Origin: a virus
Strand: one strand, 5' to 3'
IMG/VR virus record: IMGVR_UViG_3300042924_003555
Span: 1 to 20,909 of that record
DNA: 20,909 nt
The position numbers and the translations under genes were made by a program. Shown here in pieces: positions 2,930 through 12,569 of the stretch. Position 1 is the first letter of the stretch. Every line of letters starts with the position of its first letter. A model generated the notes under the pieces. The model made no database searches and had not been told where the DNA came from. It worked only from the letters and a program-made list of their open reading frames with translations.

Positions 2930-2955
2930 GAGGGATGTTTCGGATTTTTGAAATT

Positions 2956-2997
2956 GCCCGGGCCGGTCTCCCGGGGTGGCCTTACCGGGGCTTGTCA
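2956..2997 (-). repeat. 42-bp GC-rich repeat, copy A, with hairpin
   Basis: Identical over 42 bases to 4221-4262. On the minus strand the repeat starts exactly with the TGA stop of the gene at 2995-3294 and ends in a hairpin with CCCGGG arms around AGACCGG. Only a weak T run (AATTT) follows here, so termination is possible but not certain. Confidence 0.75.
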
Positions 2998-3294
2998 TCC
3001 ACAAATCAGATGCAGTGCCAGTTTCTGCTGGCGGTTCGCTTTAGTCCAGAACCAGCCAGCCACACAGTGCCAACAGCAGTTCACGCTGTGGCTGTCCTTT
3101 GCCGTCCGATTGAATGCAGTGTTCACCTGCAGGGCGCTTCGCGGAATCCACACTGTCAGGTTTCGCTCAGCGTTGTGAACCTTGATTGCCTTGTCCGTCG
3201 CTGCCATAACATCCAGAACGAAGTCAATGTGGTCTTCCACGCATCGCGTGCAAAACAAAGCGTCGCCAACCTGTGCTTCGGTAACAGTCTTCAT
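2995..3294 (-). CDS. Hypothetical protein of cassette 1
   Basis: A 99-residue protein with the start MKTVTEAQVGDALF. The AAGGGGCTGAG ribosome site and promoter of cassette 1 directly precede it. C15-x-x-C18 (FCTRC) and a second cysteine cluster near residue 73 (NCCWHC) could bind a metal. The middle (KAIKVHNAERNLTVWIPRSA) resembles the small phage domain in which a polar strand is followed by WIPKSQ; this is a similarity by eye, not a family call. The function is unknown. The stop codon forms the first bases of repeat copy A. Confidence 0.7.
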   Translation of the reverse strand: MKTVTEAQVGDALFCTRCVEDHIDFVLDVMAATDKAIKVHNAERNLTVWIPRSALQVNTAFNRTAKDSHSVNCCWHCVAGWFWTKANRQQKLALHLICG

Positions 3295-3320
3295 CTCTCA
3301 GCCCCTTGCTTAGTTGTGCT

Positions 3321-3343
3321 GTCTTCCGCACCTTGCGTCCGAC
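3321..3343 (-). promoter_or_regulatory. Leader hairpin 1 (AGG loop)
   Basis: Minus strand: outer stem GTC/GAC, a symmetric purine internal loop (GGA opposite GAA), inner stem CGCA/TGCG and loop AGG. Identical to hairpin 2. The following ribosome site of cassette 1 (3297-3311) contains AAGGGG and is shared with cassettes 2, 3 and 4. Confidence 0.65.
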
Positions 3344-3349
3344 GGGTGA

Positions 3350-3377
3350 ATCTTAGCACCTTATCGTTTTGTGTCCA
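3350..3377 (-). promoter_or_regulatory. Promoter of cassette 1
   Basis: -35 TGGACA (3372-3377), 16-base spacer, -10 TAAGAT (3350-3355). The spacer begins CAAAACGATAAGGTGC, the same as in cassette 4. The AATCT box lies 13 bases upstream at 3391-3405. Confidence 0.65.
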
Positions 3378-3390
3378 GTCTGGTCTCCAG

Positions 3391-3405
3391 AGAATCTGGA
3401 AGATT
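3391..3405 (-). promoter_or_regulatory. Upstream box, copy 1
   Basis: Minus strand AATCTTCCAGATTCT; the first 13 bases form a dyad, AATCT and AGATT around TCC. It lies 13 bases before the -35 box. It may be an operator or an activator site. Confidence 0.45.
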
Positions 3406-3416
3406 TCAAAAGATTA

Positions 3417-3437
3417 CCCCGGGCCGGTCTCCCGGGG
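3417..3437 (-). terminator. GC-rich hairpin after the cassette 2 gene
   Basis: Minus strand: arms CCCCGGG and CCCGGGG around AGACCGG, a perfect 7-bp stem. It is the hairpin part of the 42-bp repeat without the rest. TAATCTTTT follows, a poor T run, so it may be a partial terminator or a 3'-end stabiliser for the 56-residue protein gene. Confidence 0.5.
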
Positions 3438-3452
3438 TTGAGTGTGTCGGGT

Positions 3453-3623
3453 TTACTTGCAGTCGAAGCAGACAGAGTCAATTTCATCCAGAGCGTCGAA
3501 ATCTTCCATCATCGCGAGAAACTTGTTGTAATCGACCATGTTTCCAAACGTCTTTGTTTCGAAATGCCACGCACCAGCGGTTCCAAAGTCGCGGCCAGTT
3601 TTCACGTTTACGGTAATGGTCAT
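3453..3623 (-). CDS. Small hypothetical protein of cassette 2
   Basis: A 56-residue protein (begins MTITVNVKTGRDFGTAGAWH, ends VCFDCK), preceded by the promoter, hairpin and ribosome site of cassette 2 and followed by a GC-rich hairpin. It is acidic in its second half (MMEDFDALDEIDS) with a C-x-x-C near the end, and has no membrane segment. A longer open frame over the same DNA (3484-3840) reads through the promoter and is not real. The function is unknown. The context, with its own promoter and hairpin, is the best evidence that it is a gene. Confidence 0.7.
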   Translation of the reverse strand: MTITVNVKTGRDFGTAGAWHFETKTFGNMVDYNKFLAMMEDFDALDEIDSVCFDCK

Positions 3624-3652
3624 CGCTCAGCCCCTTGCTTTTTGTTTGTCCT

Positions 3653-3675
3653 GTCTTCCGCACCTTGCGTCCGAC
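3653..3675 (-). promoter_or_regulatory. Leader hairpin 2 (AGG loop)
   Basis: Same 23 bases as hairpin 1: stems GTC/GAC and CGCA/TGCG, internal loop GGA/GAA, apical loop AGG. Confidence 0.65.
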
Positions 3676-3681
3676 GGGTGA

Positions 3682-3709
3682 AGTATAGCTGCTTATCGTT
3701 TTGTGTCCA
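3682..3709 (-). promoter_or_regulatory. Promoter of cassette 2
   Basis: -35 TGGACA (3704-3709), 16-base spacer, -10 TATACT (3682-3687). Drives the 56-residue protein gene. Confidence 0.7.
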
Positions 3710-3731
3710 GTGTGAACGGGACAAAATTTTG

Positions 3732-3746
3732 AGATTCTGGAAGATT
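3732..3746 (-). promoter_or_regulatory. Upstream box, copy 2
   Basis: Minus strand AATCTTCCAGAATCT, 22 bases before the -35 box. It differs from copies 1 and 4 by the central base of AGAWTCT, and has 9 more bases between box and promoter, as in copy 3. Confidence 0.45.
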
Positions 3747-3763
3747 GCCACTCCACTTGTGGC

Positions 3764-3778
3764 AATGCCACAGGGTTT
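3764..3778 (-). terminator. Small hairpin after 3791-4204
   Basis: Minus strand TGTGGC-ATT-GCCACA, a 6-bp stem with a three-base loop, next to partial copies of GGCATTG. It takes the place that the GC-rich hairpin holds after the other genes. There is no T run, so a terminator role is doubtful. Confidence 0.3.
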
Positions 3779-3790
3779 GTGACAATGCCG

Positions 3791-4204
3791 TCACGGCGAC
3801 TTATGCAGCAAGAGACCTTCCAGCCGCTCCACTTCTGCACTGATTGCCTTTAGGGACACTGCAGCGCTTGTAATGGCCTTCTCCGGGTCAATGAACATTG
3901 ACGCGCTGTTGCAAAACCCGCCTTTGGCGGATGCAATCGACGCGCTGACGCTTGCTGTCGGAAATTCCGCCAAACAATGCAGCAGAACCTCACTAGCTCG
4001 CAGTTGCGGGGCAATCAGCAACAACGCGCCAATGTCCTCCACCGACTGCACCGGAATCGCCAAAACGGTTGTTTCCGCCTCATCATCCCACGACGAAGCG
4101 TAATTGTGCCAGTCATCCCATTTTGTGCCGCGAAGCGCACGGCTGGCATCGCTTCTGTCCACAGAATAAAACTGAAGTACCCACTCTTGCTTTTTGCTGT
4201 TCAT
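3791..4204 (-). CDS. Hypothetical protein
   Basis: A 137-residue protein from the ATG at 4204 (MNSKKQEWVLQFYSVDRSDA). I chose it over an ATG 12 bases upstream because GGAG stands 6 bases before it. There is a likely soluble N-terminal half with W-rich segments (KWDDWHNYASSWDD) and helical later segments; the last 35 residues (ITSAAVSLKAISAEVERLEG) look like a coiled coil. No family is recognised. It has no cassette of its own and sits 17 bases after the hairpin of repeat copy B, so it depends on read-through from the DUF6011 gene. Confidence 0.65.
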   Translation of the reverse strand: MNSKKQEWVLQFYSVDRSDASRALRGTKWDDWHNYASSWDDEAETTVLAIPVQSVEDIGALLLIAPQLRASEVLLHCLAEFPTASVSASIASAKGGFCNSASMFIDPEKAITSAAVSLKAISAEVERLEGLLLHKSP

Positions 4205-4220
4205 GGCATTCTCCAAAAAA

Positions 4221-4262
4221 GCCCGGGCCGGTCTCCCGGGGTGGCCTTACCGGGGCTTGTCA
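4221..4262 (-). repeat. 42-bp GC-rich repeat, copy B, with terminator-like hairpin
   Basis: Identical over 42 bases to 2956-2997, and again starting at the TGA stop of the gene before it (4260-4262). The hairpin (CCCGGG arms around AGACCGG) is followed at once by CTTTTTT, which makes a good intrinsic terminator. The same T run is joined to the ribosome site GGAG of the next gene, so termination and translation start are close neighbours. Confidence 0.75.
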
Positions 4263-4655
4263 GTTTTCGCCCATTTCCTTTTCAGCACACGTCGGACCAA
4301 TCCCACTGGCCACAGACTCCGGTGTTGTCAGGTCTCGGTTGCATCGTCGGCAACAGCAACTTGCGGAAATCTGCAGTCCGTGCTTTTTGGCAACTCGCGG
4401 CAGGTTTGTCAACATCGCAGCGTACTGGCTGAACACTGTGCCTTCGTGCTTCCGCCAGACTCGCACGCCACTTTTTTCAACGAACCCGAATCCGGTGTAA
4501 TCCTCTGTGTTGTCTGGCCCCGTCAGCAGGCTAACAATTCGCTTGCCAGCCAGCTTGCTGTCTGCGGATGCCGTGCGAACCTGAAACGTCCTGTGATTTC
4601 CGGTTGCTGGATTTTTGATTGTCCAAGTCCCGTTGTGTGTCAGAATGCTTTCCAT
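4260..4655 (-). CDS. DUF6011-type zinc-ribbon protein of cassette 3
   Basis: A 131-residue protein. Residues 10-60 (TWTIKNPATGNHRTF, then KRIVSLLTGPDNTEDYTGFG) are typical of small phage and plasmid proteins that precede a C-terminal zinc knuckle. C102-x-x-C105 with NRDLTTPESVASGIGPTC up to C123 matches DUF6011 (C-x-x-C-x-R-x-L-T-x-P-x-S-x-x-x-G-I-G-P-x-C). The biological role of the family is not known; a nucleic-acid or protein-binding role is inferred. The start follows the cassette 3 ribosome site. The TGA opens repeat copy B. Confidence 0.8.
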   Translation of the reverse strand: MESILTHNGTWTIKNPATGNHRTFQVRTASADSKLAGKRIVSLLTGPDNTEDYTGFGFVEKSGVRVWRKHEGTVFSQYAAMLTNLPRVAKKHGLQISASCCCRRCNRDLTTPESVASGIGPTCAEKEMGEN

Positions 4656-4679
4656 CTCTCAGCCCCTTGCTTTTGTCTC

Positions 4680-4702
4680 GCCTCCCGCACCTTGCGTTCG
4701 GC
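4680..4702 (-). promoter_or_regulatory. Leader hairpin 3 (AGG loop, covarying stem)
   Basis: Minus strand: outer stem GCC/GGC replaces GTC/GAC of hairpins 1, 2 and 4, with both arms changed so that pairing is kept. The internal loop is GAA/GGA, the inner stem CGCA/TGCG and the loop AGG. This double change is the best single piece of evidence for an RNA structure. Confidence 0.7.
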
Positions 4703-4710
4703 ATGGCAGT

Positions 4711-4739
4711 AGTATCGTTTGTTTTCCCGTTTGTGTCCA
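4711..4739 (-). promoter_or_regulatory. Promoter of cassette 3
   Basis: -35 TGGACA (4734-4739), 17-base spacer, -10 GATACT (4711-4716). The spacer sequence is the most diverged of the four. Confidence 0.6.
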
Positions 4740-4761
4740 GTGTAAACGGGAAAGAATTTTG

Positions 4762-4776
4762 AGATTCTGGAAGATT
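4762..4776 (-). promoter_or_regulatory. Upstream box, copy 3
   Basis: Minus strand AATCTTCCAGAATCT, identical to copy 2 and also 22 bases before its -35 box. Confidence 0.45.
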
Positions 4777-4777
4777 G

Positions 4778-4798
4778 CCCCGGGCCGGTCTCCCGGGG
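4778..4798 (-). terminator. GC-rich hairpin after the LPD29 gene
   Basis: Same 21 bases as 3417-3437 (7-bp stem CCCCGGG/CCCGGGG, loop AGACCGG), 16 bases after the stop of the LPD29-type gene and 1 base before the upstream box of cassette 3. No T run follows. Confidence 0.5.
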
Positions 4799-4814
4799 GC
4801 TGTGTTGTTGCGAG

Positions 4815-5387
4815 TCAGTTCACGGTCTGTTTTTCCAAGCGATCCATCCAAAAGTCAAGCGTTTCGCCATTGTGGTACAATCGCCAACTGCTTTCGCCAT
4901 TGTCTTTGATTCCGTAGTGCTCAACCGTCCGTTTTCGCAGCTTCTCAAAGTATTCGGCGGACATGTCGCGATGCGTGCTCATGTACTTAACACCGCTGCC
5001 GACCAGCACGGATCCCGCCTCTGGGCAGTCGGTAGCATAGCCTTCCACGCAACCCATTGATCCGCAGGTGCCACGGCTTTCAGCCGGTGTCATTTCGCCA
5101 GACGGCAGGAGCCAGTTGCGGCTGCTGTAGGCCATGTCGATGCTACCATCAAAGCCCCCGAACGAAAACTGACCGATGACACCGCTGACTTCGCTGCTGA
5201 CAGGGCCATCCACCCATGAAACGTCAATCCCGCTGTAGTCACTGCGGACGCCGAACTTAACTCCGGGAAACGCCTTTTTCAGTGCGGCTCGTACCAGAAC
5301 AGCCACGTCCTTCGCTGCCAAATATGCTACGCCATTTTCGTTGCGATTGTTACGAGCGGTTTCGATAATGCTTTTGACGGTTGCCAT
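4815..5387 (-). CDS. LPD29-domain protein of cassette 4
   Basis: A 190-residue protein. Residues 25-90 (KDVAVLVRAALKKAFPGVKF, then VRSDYSGIDVSWVDGPVSSE and FDGSIDMAYSS) match the large polyvalent protein-associated domain LPD29, found in phage and plasmid proteins as a lone domain or as part of polyvalent proteins. Cysteines near residues 108-121 (TCGSMGCVEGYATDC) could hold a metal. The exact activity of the domain is not known; association with anti-defence or entry proteins is family context only. The start MATVKSIIETA follows the cassette 4 ribosome site and hairpin. Confidence 0.78.
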   Translation of the reverse strand: MATVKSIIETARNNRNENGVAYLAAKDVAVLVRAALKKAFPGVKFGVRSDYSGIDVSWVDGPVSSEVSGVIGQFSFGGFDGSIDMAYSSRNWLLPSGEMTPAESRGTCGSMGCVEGYATDCPEAGSVLVGSGVKYMSTHRDMSAEYFEKLRKRTVEHYGIKDNGESSWRLYHNGETLDFWMDRLEKQTVN

Positions 5388-5415
5388 TGCTCAGCCCCTT
5401 GCTTTTCGTTGTTCT

Positions 5416-5438
5416 GTCGTTCGCACCTTGCGTCTGAC
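5416..5438 (-). promoter_or_regulatory. Leader hairpin 4 (AGG loop)
   Basis: Minus strand: outer stem GTC/GAC, internal loop AGA/AAC, inner stem CGCA/TGCG, loop AGG. The stems and apical loop are those of hairpins 1 and 2, while three bases of the internal loop differ. Confidence 0.65.
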
Positions 5439-5444
5439 GGGTGA

Positions 5445-5472
5445 AGTATAGCACCTTATCGTTTTGTGTCCA
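5445..5472 (-). promoter_or_regulatory. Promoter of cassette 4
   Basis: -35 TGGACA (5467-5472), 16-base spacer, -10 TATACT (5445-5450). It overlaps the last codons of the small membrane protein gene at 5456-5638. Confidence 0.7.
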
Positions 5473-5638
5473 GCGTAAGCTGAAAAGAATCTGGAAGATT
5501 TTTAGAAGTCGCGGAAACACAGGGTCGGCCAACGTGCTGCCGGTACTCCAGCCAGTCGCGCTCAAGCTGTGCGGCCAACTCGCGACGGGGGCTGTCGATC
5601 AGGATGGAGATTGCAACCGCCATCACAATGACCGCCAT
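5456..5638 (-). CDS. Small membrane protein
   Basis: About 60 residues from the ATG at 5638 (MAVIVMAVAISILID), with GAGG 6 bases upstream; an in-frame ATG at 5662 (MVGSVRLV) is possible but has no ribosome site. There is one N-terminal transmembrane helix, then a charged helix (SPRRELAAQLERDWLEYRQH). It follows the methyltransferase gene with an overlap or a few bases, so it belongs to the tail operon. Its last 16 or so codons are made from the upstream box and -35 region of cassette 4, so the original C-terminus may have been shorter. A holin- or spanin-like role is possible, but there is no endolysin nearby to support it. Confidence 0.55.
   Translation of the reverse strand: MAVIVMAVAISILIDSPRRELAAQLERDWLEYRQHVGRPCVSATSKNLPDSFQLTLDTKR
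5486..5500 (-). promoter_or_regulatory. Upstream box, copy 4
   Basis: Minus strand AATCTTCCAGATTCT, the same as copy 1 and also 13 bases before its -35 box. It lies inside the coding end of 5456-5638. Confidence 0.45.
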
Positions 5639-9104: not shown

Positions 9105-10000
9105 GTGCTGGCACTCCACAGGTTGTTAAACTCAAAGAGCTGGAACAGCGGGGCAAAAGTATCGTAAGCCTTGATTTTGTCGTAGTCGCCCGTGTCTGGT
9201 CGCAATTGATGATTCCACCCGTAGATGTCGGCTGTCGCTGGTGCCGCACCTCCCTTGCCCGTGGTTGTGAGTGCCTTCTGGGCCTTCTCTACGAATCGTA
9301 GCGTAAGCTTTCGTGTTGAAAACACGCCGTCAAACGAAAGAGAAACCTCATCATCAAAACCATCAAACAGCAGCGTCTCCGGCTGAAATACCTGTGGGCT
9401 TCCCGGCAGTCGGCACGCAGTTTGATTCACGCAGCCTTTCATGTTAGACAGCGTAATCCACGGCACAATTTTCACCTGATGCCACGTCACCGTGTGTTGC
9501 GTCGCGGAATCTGGAATCACCGCCGCAATGTCCGCCGGAAGTGCTTTGGAGTCACTTTCCCAAATCAGCGCCCGAGCAACAACACTGCGAAACTCCACAT
9601 TACTTGTCTGGCTGTAGGTCGCCCACGTTCCAGCCGGAAGCGGTGAAGGCTCACCCGGATCATTCTGCTGCTGCTGGTCAGTCTGCAGTGGGCTGTAGGT
9701 AATCGTGATCCGCGCGAGCGATCCCGTGTGTTCCAGCTGCTGCGTGTTAGGATCTGTGATCGTCGCGGCTGCTGGCTTGTTTACCAGCCGGTTAATGCGG
9801 AACTTATCCGCCAGCACCCCAGGCCAGTAGCTGGAGTAAGACGCCGGAAGGCCGAACGGGCCGGATGTGTAGTGAGCCGCGATGAACTGCCAGCGGTCTT
9901 CCCACGCAGTCAGGAAGATTCGCGTAAAATCGAATTCGCCCGCACGGCTGCCAGACTCTTCCGGGCTATCTTCATGCTCCTGAAACGCTGGATACGTCAT
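9101..10000 (-). CDS. Minor tail protein
   Basis: A 299-residue protein immediately after the tape measure gene, whose stop overlaps its ATG. It is mostly beta-rich and aromatic (FDFTRIFLTAWEDRWQFIAA), with a Q-rich stretch QTDQQQQND near residue 107. The C-terminal segment YGWNHQLRPDTGDYDKI is followed by a phenylalanine-rich end. The position fits the minor or distal tail protein that caps the tape measure. The exact homologue is not recognised. Confidence 0.6.
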   Translation of the reverse strand: MTYPAFQEHEDSPEESGSRAGEFDFTRIFLTAWEDRWQFIAAHYTSGPFGLPASYSSYWPGVLADKFRINRLVNKPAAATITDPNTQQLEHTGSLARITITYSPLQTDQQQQNDPGEPSPLPAGTWATYSQTSNVEFRSVVARALIWESDSKALPADIAAVIPDSATQHTVTWHQVKIVPWITLSNMKGCVNQTACRLPGSPQVFQPETLLFDGFDDEVSLSFDGVFSTRKLTLRFVEKAQKALTTTGKGGAAPATADIYGWNHQLRPDTGDYDKIKAYDTFAPLFQLFEFNNLWSAST

Positions 10001-11499
10001 CCGAGTACCCCCAGTGTGGCGAGCCCGCCGATTCCGTTGTTGATTTGCTCAAGCCGCGCCACTGCCTCAGTTTGCTGCTGCAACTGGTTCTGTGCGATTT
10101 CGGCCAGCTTGTCCTGCTGCTGTAGTCTGTCCTGCAGTCGCTGAAATGTCTGCAGTGCTCCGGCGCGTTCCACTCGCTGCTGTTCAGCCTGCGCAGCCGT
10201 TGCCCCGCCCAATTGCTCGAAGGCGGTCATGTCCCCGCCTTGTGTTGGCGGCGCGGCGCCACGATTCCTTTCCGCTCCAGTTTGTGGCCCTCTTGCCGCG
10301 GCCCTATTGGCTTCAATGCGCTGCTGACGCACAAGGGCCAGTTCCGCTTTCACCTGGTCCAATACGCCGCCAGACATCGCCGCCGAAAACTCCATTTCGG
10401 GCAGCGCCTGAAACGCCGCTACGCCCTGCAATTCCTGCAAAATGACATCGGGTCGCAGGTTGTTCGCAATAGCCTTTCCAGCATTCATGCTGTACTCAAC
10501 CAACTCGCCGAGCCACGTCTGAACGTCCGCGAAAAACAGCCGAAACTGATCTGGTAGACTGGCCCCAATAACCGCCACGGCCACGCCAAAATCGGCAAGG
10601 TTGTTTTGCATCTCAGTAAAGAATCGCTTGCTTGTGGTTAGCCATTGCTCTGTGCGAGTCTTAACGTCGGTGACACCTTCTGCCGTGCTGTTGAGAAACT
10701 CCAAGAACCGATTGATTTCAGGCAGCAACGCGCTTCCGAATGCGATAGCCACCTGCTCAACATTCGTCTGGAATTTTGCAAACTGCCCGGCCGTCGTTTG
10801 TGACATGCGATCATTCATTCCCGCCAGTCGCCCGGTGCCAGTGGTCAGCCCCTCTAAGGCTGCCCGCACCATCTCGTAACTGATCTTCCCATCCTCCATG
10901 TCTTTTTTAAGGTCTGACATGCTGCGGCCAGTCATCTTACTGATTTCAAACAACGGGCTAAAGCCGCTGTTGATGAGCTGATTCGCCTCCTGCCCCATCA
11001 GTCGCCCAGCCGCCTGAACCTGTGCCATGCCACGGGCCAACAGCATCAATTGCTCTGTGTCGCCCTGTGCCACTTCCGTGAGATTGGTGAGCACTCCAAA
11101 CGCCTCGCCGCCCGCCATGCCGAAGTTCATCATCAGTTTTTGAGCTTGCGCAAGATCCTGCGTTCCAAAGACGGTTTTCTTGTCCAGTTTGCGAATATCG
11201 TCCAGCATTTTCCGGGCTGATTCGCCGCTACCCGTCAGCACCTCAAATGATATCGCCGTCTTCTCCGCCTCTGCCGTCAGGCTTAGCATTTTCGTCACGC
11301 CTGCAGCCACCCCAACAGTCGCCAGAATGCCGCCCACGCCGCTGAATGCCGAGCGAATGCCTCCCAGTGCACCGCCTGCGCGTTTTGCTGCGGACACGAT
11401 GCCGTCCATTGCTCCGGCGGCTTTTTTGGCCTCCGTGTTCACCTGCTGCATCCCGTCAGCAGAGAACAGCACCTGTGCTTCCTGGACTGTGATTGCCAT
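9997..11499 (-). CDS. Tape measure protein
   Basis: A 500-residue protein. The N-terminal 300 residues match the phage tape measure domain: a helical start with an Ala/Gly-rich hydrophobic segment (GALGGIRSAFSGVGGILATV), then EKTAISFEVLTGSGESARKM and the LAQAQKLMMNFGMAGGEAFG region that is characteristic of the family. Residues 430-490 are a glutamine-rich coiled coil. The protein fixes tail length by threading the tube; 500 residues would suit a short tail of roughly 75 nm at 1.5 angstrom per residue (an estimate). Its ATG follows directly after the stop of the GT frame. Confidence 0.9.
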   Translation of the reverse strand: MAITVQEAQVLFSADGMQQVNTEAKKAAGAMDGIVSAAKRAGGALGGIRSAFSGVGGILATVGVAAGVTKMLSLTAEAEKTAISFEVLTGSGESARKMLDDIRKLDKKTVFGTQDLAQAQKLMMNFGMAGGEAFGVLTNLTEVAQGDTEQLMLLARGMAQVQAAGRLMGQEANQLINSGFSPLFEISKMTGRSMSDLKKDMEDGKISYEMVRAALEGLTTGTGRLAGMNDRMSQTTAGQFAKFQTNVEQVAIAFGSALLPEINRFLEFLNSTAEGVTDVKTRTEQWLTTSKRFFTEMQNNLADFGVAVAVIGASLPDQFRLFFADVQTWLGELVEYSMNAGKAIANNLRPDVILQELQGVAAFQALPEMEFSAAMSGGVLDQVKAELALVRQQRIEANRAAARGPQTGAERNRGAAPPTQGGDMTAFEQLGGATAAQAEQQRVERAGALQTFQRLQDRLQQQDKLAEIAQNQLQQQTEAVARLEQINNGIGGLATLGVLG

Positions 11500-11693
11500 T
11501 TATCGCACGTCCTGCTTTTGCCAGATGTCCTCTGGCGCCCAAAACCCGGCGTAAATCAGTGCCTGATACATGGTCAGTTTGCCAACCTGCTCAGGCGTCC
11601 AATGGTACTTTTCGGCCATGCCGCGGAACAGTCCCGCCCACGGAACTGTCCTGCGGGAGGGTAACTGCGCGCCGGGTGGCCCCGGCGCCTTCA
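11500..11693 (-). CDS. Frameshifted T part of the tail assembly chaperone GT
   Basis: Sixty-four residues (begins LKAPGPPGAQLPSRR, ends PEDIWQKQDVR), read only after a -1 slip at the heptamer GGGAAAC (11694-11700). The first shifted codon spans 11694-11692. Joined to the gene at 11691-12140, it gives a 213-residue GT protein, as in lambda. The C-terminal half resembles a small helical chaperone domain (HWTPEQVGKLTMYQALIYAG). It has no start or ribosome site of its own, so an annotation as a separate gene from 11853 would be wrong. Confidence 0.82.
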
Positions 11694-12140
11694 GTTTCCC
11701 AAGCGGTCCTTTTCTTCGACGTGGTGAATCGCCCGGACAAGATCCGCAGCGTTGCCGTACCACGCGATAAAATCGCATCCGAGCTGAATCCCCTTTGCGG
11801 CCGGAAGGCCAGGCGGAAACTCGTCTGGATGGTTCACTGACAACGCCCGCCACAGGCTGTAGGCAAGCCCGCGGAATGATCGATCGAAGCGGTCTTCGTC
11901 TTCCATCGTCGCGATCAGCGGACGCGCCGCAATGTCTGCCGCGATCCGCATAGCCTGCTGCCTGATTGCAGAATCTGAGATTGCCTCAATCCCTGCATAC
12001 GGGCTGCCAACTTTTGCCAAGATGGCTTCTTCCTTGGCTGCGTAGTCGTCGAGGATTCGGACGGCGAGCCTGTAGGTTCGGCCGTCTTTGGTGAGTTCTA
12101 CGGCACGTCTGCCGCAGAGATTAAAAATGCCGTCCGCCAT
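11691..12140 (-). CDS. Tail assembly chaperone (G-like)
   Basis: A 149-residue protein placed between the major tail protein and the tape measure, as is usual for the lambda gpG type. Its N-terminus (MADGIFNLCGRRAVELTKDG) looks like the beta start of these proteins, followed by helices. Just before its TGA the sequence contains the slippery heptamer GGGAAAC in the correct frame (G-GGA-AAC), so a share of ribosomes makes the longer GT product. The family keeps the tape measure protein soluble and guides tube assembly around it. The start follows AGGAG at 9 bases. Confidence 0.85.
   Translation of the reverse strand: MADGIFNLCGRRAVELTKDGRTYRLAVRILDDYAAKEEAILAKVGSPYAGIEAISDSAIRQQAMRIAADIAARPLIATMEDEDRFDRSFRGLAYSLWRALSVNHPDEFPPGLPAAKGIQLGCDFIAWYGNAADLVRAIHHVEEKDRLGN
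11694..11700 (-). promoter_or_regulatory. -1 frameshift slippery heptamer GGGAAAC
   Basis: G GGA AAC in the frame of the chaperone gene is a canonical X-XXY-YYZ site, one base different from the lambda GGGAAAG. The zero frame reaches TGA directly after it, while the -1 frame stays open for 64 more codons. Confidence 0.85.
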
Positions 12141-12155
12141 CGGTCCTTACTCCTG

Positions 12156-12569
12156 TTATGCAATGATATCAAATGCGTTGCCCGACTTACTGGGCGCACC
12201 CTGTCCGTCGAAGGCGTAGTCGATTGCCACTGGGTCGCCTGAATCGGCGTCCAGCGTGATCGGCCCCACCTCTGTGATTACGATTGTGCCGCTAATGTAG
12301 TCGTCAGAATCGGCATGAAACTGTGCGGCCACCTCGTCACCACGGGCCAGCGGTTGCCCGCCGCCGTCGTGTAGCATAATGGTCATCTTACCAGACCACT
12401 CGCCCACACCAATAGTGGTCTTCCGCCAGCCTGCTGTTGAGTTGCTGGCGTACTTTCCTGACGCGCCGCCGATGGTCACCTCCCAGCTCCCGACGTGGTC
12501 AAGCGCCGCTGCTGGGCTGCCCGTCTTGAGGGTCATAGACTTGCCAGTAAACGGTGTTCCTGCGGGCAT
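12156..12569 (-). CDS. Major tail protein
   Basis: A 137-residue beta-rich protein that follows a strong AAGGAG ribosome site at 7 bases. Segments such as GSWEVTIGGASGKYASN and WSGKMTIMLHDGGGQPLARG, and the C-terminal VAIDYAFDGQGAP, are typical of tail tube proteins. It is the first of the tail tube/chaperone/tape measure triad. The function is forming the tail tube by stacking in hexameric rings. The family is clear, although the exact subfamily cannot be named. Confidence 0.78.
   Translation of the reverse strand: MPAGTPFTGKSMTLKTGSPAAALDHVGSWEVTIGGASGKYASNSTAGWRKTTIGVGEWSGKMTIMLHDGGGQPLARGDEVAAQFHADSDDYISGTIVITEVGPITLDADSGDPVAIDYAFDGQGAPSKSGNAFDIIA

Follow-up and report, generated by a model that had tools for sequence, protein, structure and literature searches.

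The locus considered here raises the question of whether the gene that lies directly before the tape-measure gene of an uncultured tailed virus makes one protein or, by means of a frameshift near its end, two. Our window, which is the whole stretch of DNA that was analysed, is an IMG/VR-type virus record of 20,909 bases. Along its minus strand the order is head genes, small genes, a gene that we call G, its -1 extension T and then the tape-measure gene. From the evidence set out below we consider, with high confidence, that G is a lambda-type G/GT tail-assembly-chaperone gene that would be subject to a programmed -1 ribosomal frameshift.

The head genes, also on the minus strand, match Pfam profiles for a portal (Phage_portal_2) and a Mu-like gpT major head protein. 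The small genes between them and G gave no informative profile match where they were scanned against Pfam, PHROGs and NCBIfam. Directly upstream of G is a 137-residue gene (12156..12569, minus strand) that, by its position only, is a putative major tail protein; its product has no informative match among Pfam, PHROGs or NCBIfam profiles. In the 0 frame, the tail-assembly-chaperone-like gene G (12140..11691, minus strand) starts with ATG and encodes 149 residues with the C-terminus LGN. Its 3′ end reads GAC CGC TTG GGA AAC TGA, in which the slippery heptamer GGGAAAC (11700-11694, minus strand; identified by sequence and conservation), in the phase G-GGA-AAC, is followed by the TGA stop (11693-11691). 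T (11694..11500, minus strand) is delimited by sequence, codon-position changes and frame-switch mapping, and ends with a TAA (11502-11500) that abuts the tape-measure ATG at 11499. That the -1 frame stays open for 64 codons up to the tape-measure gene, as the original prediction claimed, is confirmed in the sequence, and the length of 213 residues that it gave for the long product is correct (149 + 64 = 213). The tape-measure gene itself (11499..9997, minus strand) encodes 500 residues and is recognised by Pfam (TMP_3, 2.3e-18), by PHROG tape-measure families and by NCBIfam.

Elsewhere in the window, between small minus-strand genes, positions 2940-5512 contain interspersed direct repeats. 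One family of 97 nt is present in three copies (at 3310, 3642 and 5405), two of them 77% and 84% identical to the reference copy, and a GC-rich core, CCCGGGCCGGTCTCCCGGGG, is found four times, within repeats starting at 2940, 3401, 4205 and 4762. These interspersed repeats are possibly terminators or mobile palindromic repeats. Separately, a 40-nt repeat occurs at 254-293 and 604-643 (90% identity, 350 nt apart), the minus strand of both copies holding ATGGCGATTGAATGG; it has the look of a duplicated leader and gene start.

As a plain string, GGGAAAC is not rare, with four occurrences in the window against 2.77 expected. Within G it is the sole heptamer of the form X-XXY-YYZ (Y = A or T) in the slipping frame, and shuffling the codons of G 20,000 times placed such a heptamer among the last ten codons in 0.7% of cases, a rarity that is suggestive only. 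Chance is excluded by conservation, as read from the aligned sequences, and not by the frequency of the heptamer.

Relatives were gathered from viral contigs in IMG/VR by two scans with G peptides and one with T peptides, the best 80 of 86 relatives being taken from the T scan. They were picked by peptide patterns away from the heptamer, which had no part in the selection. Homologues with a conserved slippery site, which the original prediction had named as support, were looked for and found: GGGAAAC is kept in the slipping frame in 83 of the 84 relatives that reach the junction or, with the window, in 84 of 85 contigs (the T scan contributing its best 80 of 86), and L042 ends before the junction. 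These 84 contigs contain 60 distinct 250-nt junction regions. The sole exception, L079, has GGGAAAC and lacks one base after it by comparison with its closest relatives, which breaks the frame relation, and two contigs, L006 and L029, are counted among the 84 though their T frames are broken. The apparent deletions in these three contigs, in or near T or after the heptamer, are either assembly errors or decayed copies; the match of L029 in G is shortened as well.

Contigs of this kind show that broken copies or assembly errors occur, and one could suppose that the junction in the window is likewise a true frame break, due to a sequencing error or to the decay of a prophage gene. The recurrence of the same junction in nearly all contigs, across that many distinct regions, and the purifying selection on both frames described below argue against this reading, to which we assign next to no probability. 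The original statement that G ends right after the heptamer stands in part: it describes 48 of the 84 contigs, the window among them, and in the other 36 the 0 frame continues for a further 8, 9 or 12 codons; an abutting stop is therefore not essential.

For the analysis of selection, we used a tree set of 78 contigs with a complete G and an intact T motif, which yield 58 distinct G+T sequences; L006 and L029 (broken) and L027, L028, L063 and L075 (cut) were left out. G comprises the same 149 codons across the 78 contigs, and its 50 distinct proteins align in 149 columns. The start codon, which is at the same position in all 78, is GTG in 56 and ATG in 22. Parsimony places 462, 255 and 1356 changes at codon positions 1, 2 and 3 of G over the 58 distinct sequences. 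The original prediction had named a lack of conservation of the -1 frame as a result that would count against it; we find instead that T is conserved as a protein, with 110, 52 and 380 changes at -1-frame positions 1, 2 and 3 over the 43 codons from the RRT motif on.

The most telling sites are the last three codons of G. At codons 147 (Leu/Val), 148 (Gly) and 149 (Asn) the third base shows zero changes in the 58 distinct sequences, and at codon 147 the first base has changed 13 times (CTG/TTG/GTG) while the third is frozen. The 41 other codons of G with an invariant residue have, by comparison, a mean of 9.4 third-base changes, only one of them (Ala 2) having none. We attribute the freezing of these three bases to slippage, because the slip needs them and the 0 frame does not. 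The best point for a switch of coding frame falls on a plateau that begins 9 nt ahead of the end of the heptamer and extends 1 nt past it, as mapped on 38 gapless distinct sequences that stand for 48 of the 78 contigs, the other 30, which have one extra codon, being left out. These patterns of substitution indicate that the heptamer itself is under selection and that both frames are under purifying selection. Both this selection and the arrangement of the genes can be read from the sequences themselves, and together they provide what we regard as strong comparative evidence for programmed -1 frameshifting.

The same data bear on whether T might be a separate gene with a start of its own, translated without any frameshift by re-initiation or coupling after the G stop. 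G does stop right at the junction in the 48 contigs mentioned above, and start codons within T are available: the ATG of an (L/M)TMY motif is present in 76 of 78 contigs, and in 62 of those 76 another ATG lies between the heptamer and the motif. However, the T frame is conserved in a protein-like manner from the heptamer onward, some 40 codons ahead of the (L/M)TMY ATG, the earlier T-frame ATGs sit at differing places among clades, and in 55 of 78 contigs ATG, GTG and TTG are all absent from that frame between its upstream stop and the heptamer. A separate T would also leave the frozen third bases of codons 147-149 unexplained. We therefore hold a separate T gene to be very unlikely; translation of a short T fragment could begin at the internal ATGs, but conservation of the T frame sets in upstream of them. 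The mechanical list of open reading frames does contain, as had been noted, a frame with an arginine-rich, out-of-frame N-terminus from 11853 (11853..11500, minus strand). We reject it as a gene of its own, since the 55 contigs have no start codon in that frame before the heptamer.

A fused product could also come from slippage of the RNA polymerase rather than of the ribosome, with the same protein expected, and conservation of the T frame alone cannot separate the two. The runs in GGGAAAC are, however, only 3 long, compared with the transcriptional-slippage sites described in PMC3711429, which are A runs longer than 7 or T runs longer than 8, and the X-XXY-YYZ phase with kept P-site and A-site codons is the ribosomal pattern. 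Transcriptional slippage accordingly strikes us as extremely improbable.

Under a programmed ribosomal frameshift, we infer the following course of events. Most ribosomes would read G through to the TGA after the heptamer and make the 149-residue protein. A minority would slip back by one base while GGA occupies the P site and AAC the A site; their tRNAs would re-pair on GGG and AAA, and they would then translate 64 more codons to give GT. By analogy with lambda, many copies of G and few of GT would coat the tape-measure protein, and the T part would recruit the tail-tube subunit. As to the rate of slippage, frameshifting of 6% and 7% is reported for two genes of an HK97-like chaperone cluster (PMC3711429). 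A point against the frameshift is that in E. coli A_AAA_AAC is described as less slippery than A_AAA_AAG, and the lambda-type G_GGA_AAG as highly slippery (PMC5009743).

In the window and its clade, the slip rate would probably be raised by an RNA hairpin, a possible stimulator of 8 base pairs with a 4-nt loop (11669..11688, minus strand; -20.0 kcal/mol) that starts 5 nt after the heptamer; counted from the first base of GGA, the P-site codon, the distance is 11 nt. Of 1,555 overlapping control windows, drawn from 440 nt on the upstream side to 1,200 nt on the downstream side, none matches its stability in the window and the near relatives L002, L003, L004 and L006. We also compared predicted structures with a synonymous-codon null (400 randomisations, unadjusted p values, the 0-frame constraint being ignored where G continues past the heptamer), which gives p 0.013 for the window hairpin. 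In 38 of the 84 contigs, namely those of the window, L010 and L033/L037/L101 clades, a stem with 7 or more pairs begins 5 or 6 nt past the heptamer; it is absent in 46. By the same null, the 36-nt short hairpin has p values of 0.003-0.050 in the window clade, 0.003-0.022 in the L033/L037/L101 clade and 0.05-0.20 in the L010 clade. In the window-L007-L010 alignment, a covariation score with as many cells paired was reached by 3 of 500 shuffles; the signal rests on one pair (U-A/G-C/U-G), each partner of which is at a synonymous site, and this number of pairs is attained in 466 of 500 shuffles.

Over a larger region of 65 nt, the synonymous-codon test gives low values in L007-L009, L022/L024, L036 and L070-L075/L091 (p 0.000-0.052) and less low values in L025, L026 and L089 (p 0.055-0.115); the region is not low by this test in L031/L032, L045-L056, L063-L068, L096 and L099. 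In L007, L025, L036, L070 and their relatives, a larger structure can form when the bases that immediately follow the heptamer pair with conserved Pro-Trp-Ala codons some 50 nt further on; part of it may be accounted for by amino-acid constraint. A stimulatory RNA structure common to the whole family was considered and is not supported: the mean z of the 65-nt region is -1.17 over 51 distinct regions, against means of -0.07 to -1.26 for 65-nt control windows in G and T. The 36-nt test on the 51 distinct regions, which was run without control windows, gives a mean z of -0.83. By a cruder comparison with neighbouring windows, 32 of 54 distinct junctions, including L045-L056, are in their own lowest 5% and 18 in the lowest 1%, these sequences being related and not independent. 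On these predictions the hairpin would be at most a clade-level enhancer. We rejected a conserved upstream Shine-Dalgarno stimulator: the window has the Shine-Dalgarno-like AAGGA 6 nt upstream of the heptamer (11707..11711, minus strand), for which a role is unsupported, and 50 of 84 contigs have no such motif within 18 nt upstream.

The arrangement at the far end of T suggests a further idea. In 69 of 84 contigs the stop codon of T shares one base with the start codon of the tape-measure gene (TGATG or TAATG type), and in 5, window included, the two codons abut; only shifted ribosomes, which make GT, would stop at a codon beside that start. Translation of the tape measure might then be coupled to termination of T, one slip setting the ratio of GT to tape-measure protein and being tuned by the clade-specific hairpins; if this were true, frameshifting would directly fix the amounts of both. 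Median Shine-Dalgarno matches are -4.0 kcal/mol at the tape-measure start, -8.4 at G and -6.6 at the gene before G; at the gene that follows the tape measure the match is hardly stronger (-4.5). Of 80 tape-measure starts, 59 still have a motif resembling AGGA or GAGG, one of the 80 being the misplaced start of the broken copy in L029. The lambda T and H genes overlap too, and the relevant portions of PMC4493119 and PMC3025963 hold no statement that translation of the tape measure is coupled to the shift. On balance we think such coupling unlikely.

What, then, would G and T do? Nothing convincing names either of them by profile or sequence in Pfam, PHROGs, NCBIfam or PDB sequences (for T against PHROGs and NCBIfam, with the window copy), and T alone gave no convincing fold match. 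An AlphaFold2 model of G has a mean pLDDT of 70 and consists of a beta-hairpin followed by helices. Compared with predicted viral structures (BFVD), its fifth-ranked match is GT of phage N15, with E 0.053, a probability of 0.98 and a weak TM-score of 0.38; the four higher ranks are taken by uncharacterised phage proteins (best E 5.8e-4), and several other tail assembly chaperones come lower in the list with poor scores. Against the PDB the fold of G found no convincing match, VIA-align returning one uninformative row (Z 2.0). Searched by the peptide-pattern method, the species-genome collection yielded no relative of either G or T, and 50,697 phage records yielded none of G; the portal and tape-measure matches are too distant for naming a host. 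The position of the locus, its tape-measure neighbour and the weak match of the modelled fold to N15 GT support the view that G and T form a lambda-type tail-assembly chaperone; the label used in the original prediction fits the place before the tape-measure gene and the kind of heptamer. The argument for function is carried mostly by position and neighbour, together with what is known of lambda, in which G and GT are described as binding the tape measure and T as recruiting the tail-tube protein (PMC5009743). A likely function can thus be proposed for G and T, which the Pfam, PHROGs and NCBIfam scans leave unnamed, in a group of uncultured tailed viruses.

G/GT frameshifting has been described as widely conserved in long-tailed phages (PMC5009743; see also PMC10885494), and the window shares much with its best-known case. 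In lambda (NC_001416), too, G is directly before the tape-measure gene, a GGG-AAA heptamer with the same phase occurs shortly before G ends, and a -1 extension, T, ends by overlapping the tape-measure gene start. The lambda heptamer, however, is GGGAAAG, its 0 frame continues for 5 more codons, its downstream structure is weak, at -5.5 kcal/mol over 36 nt where the window has -20.0, and no profile match connects its proteins to G and T of the window. N15 gene 14/15 (GT) lies before the tape measure and carries an annotated -1 slippery sequence; besides the low TM-score of its match to G, it differs in its heptamer, annotated as GGAAAAG.

The heptamer of the window is itself found in several described systems. 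Burkholderia phage KL1 has a predicted GGGAAAC directly before a TGA in gp18/gp19 (PMC3483164), which we checked in its sequence; it differs in having no meaningful protein similarity to G of the window, a longer extension, a gene that intervenes before the tape measure and only weak structure (-4.9 kcal/mol over 36 nt). Caulobacter phage Colossus is described as having a GGGAAAC slippery site in the chaperone gene before the tape measure (PMC3556154), and the g-t genes of haloarchaeal virus HCTV-1 have a G_GGA_AAC shift site, although in an archaeal host (PMC5009743). Since GGGAAAC is already in print for these three, the window case belongs to a known kind. The spacing of the window hairpin, 11 nt after the P-site codon, is the same as that given for E. 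coli dnaX (PMC7282821); dnaX differs in its heptamer and gene, and here the Shine-Dalgarno-like stimulator is not conserved and such a hairpin is confined to the 38 contigs. What is new is a G/T pair that has no profile matches and for which isolates yielded no relatives, together with a hairpin, beginning 5-6 nt past the heptamer, that appears to be a clade-level feature. The locus also offers a clean codon-level demonstration of selection on the heptamer, usable as a test case for prediction tools, and a case in which to ask whether an A_AAC site, aided by a hairpin, can suffice for such a virus. The principle has long been known from lambda, and the window is a well supported but ordinary example of it in a little-known group of viruses.
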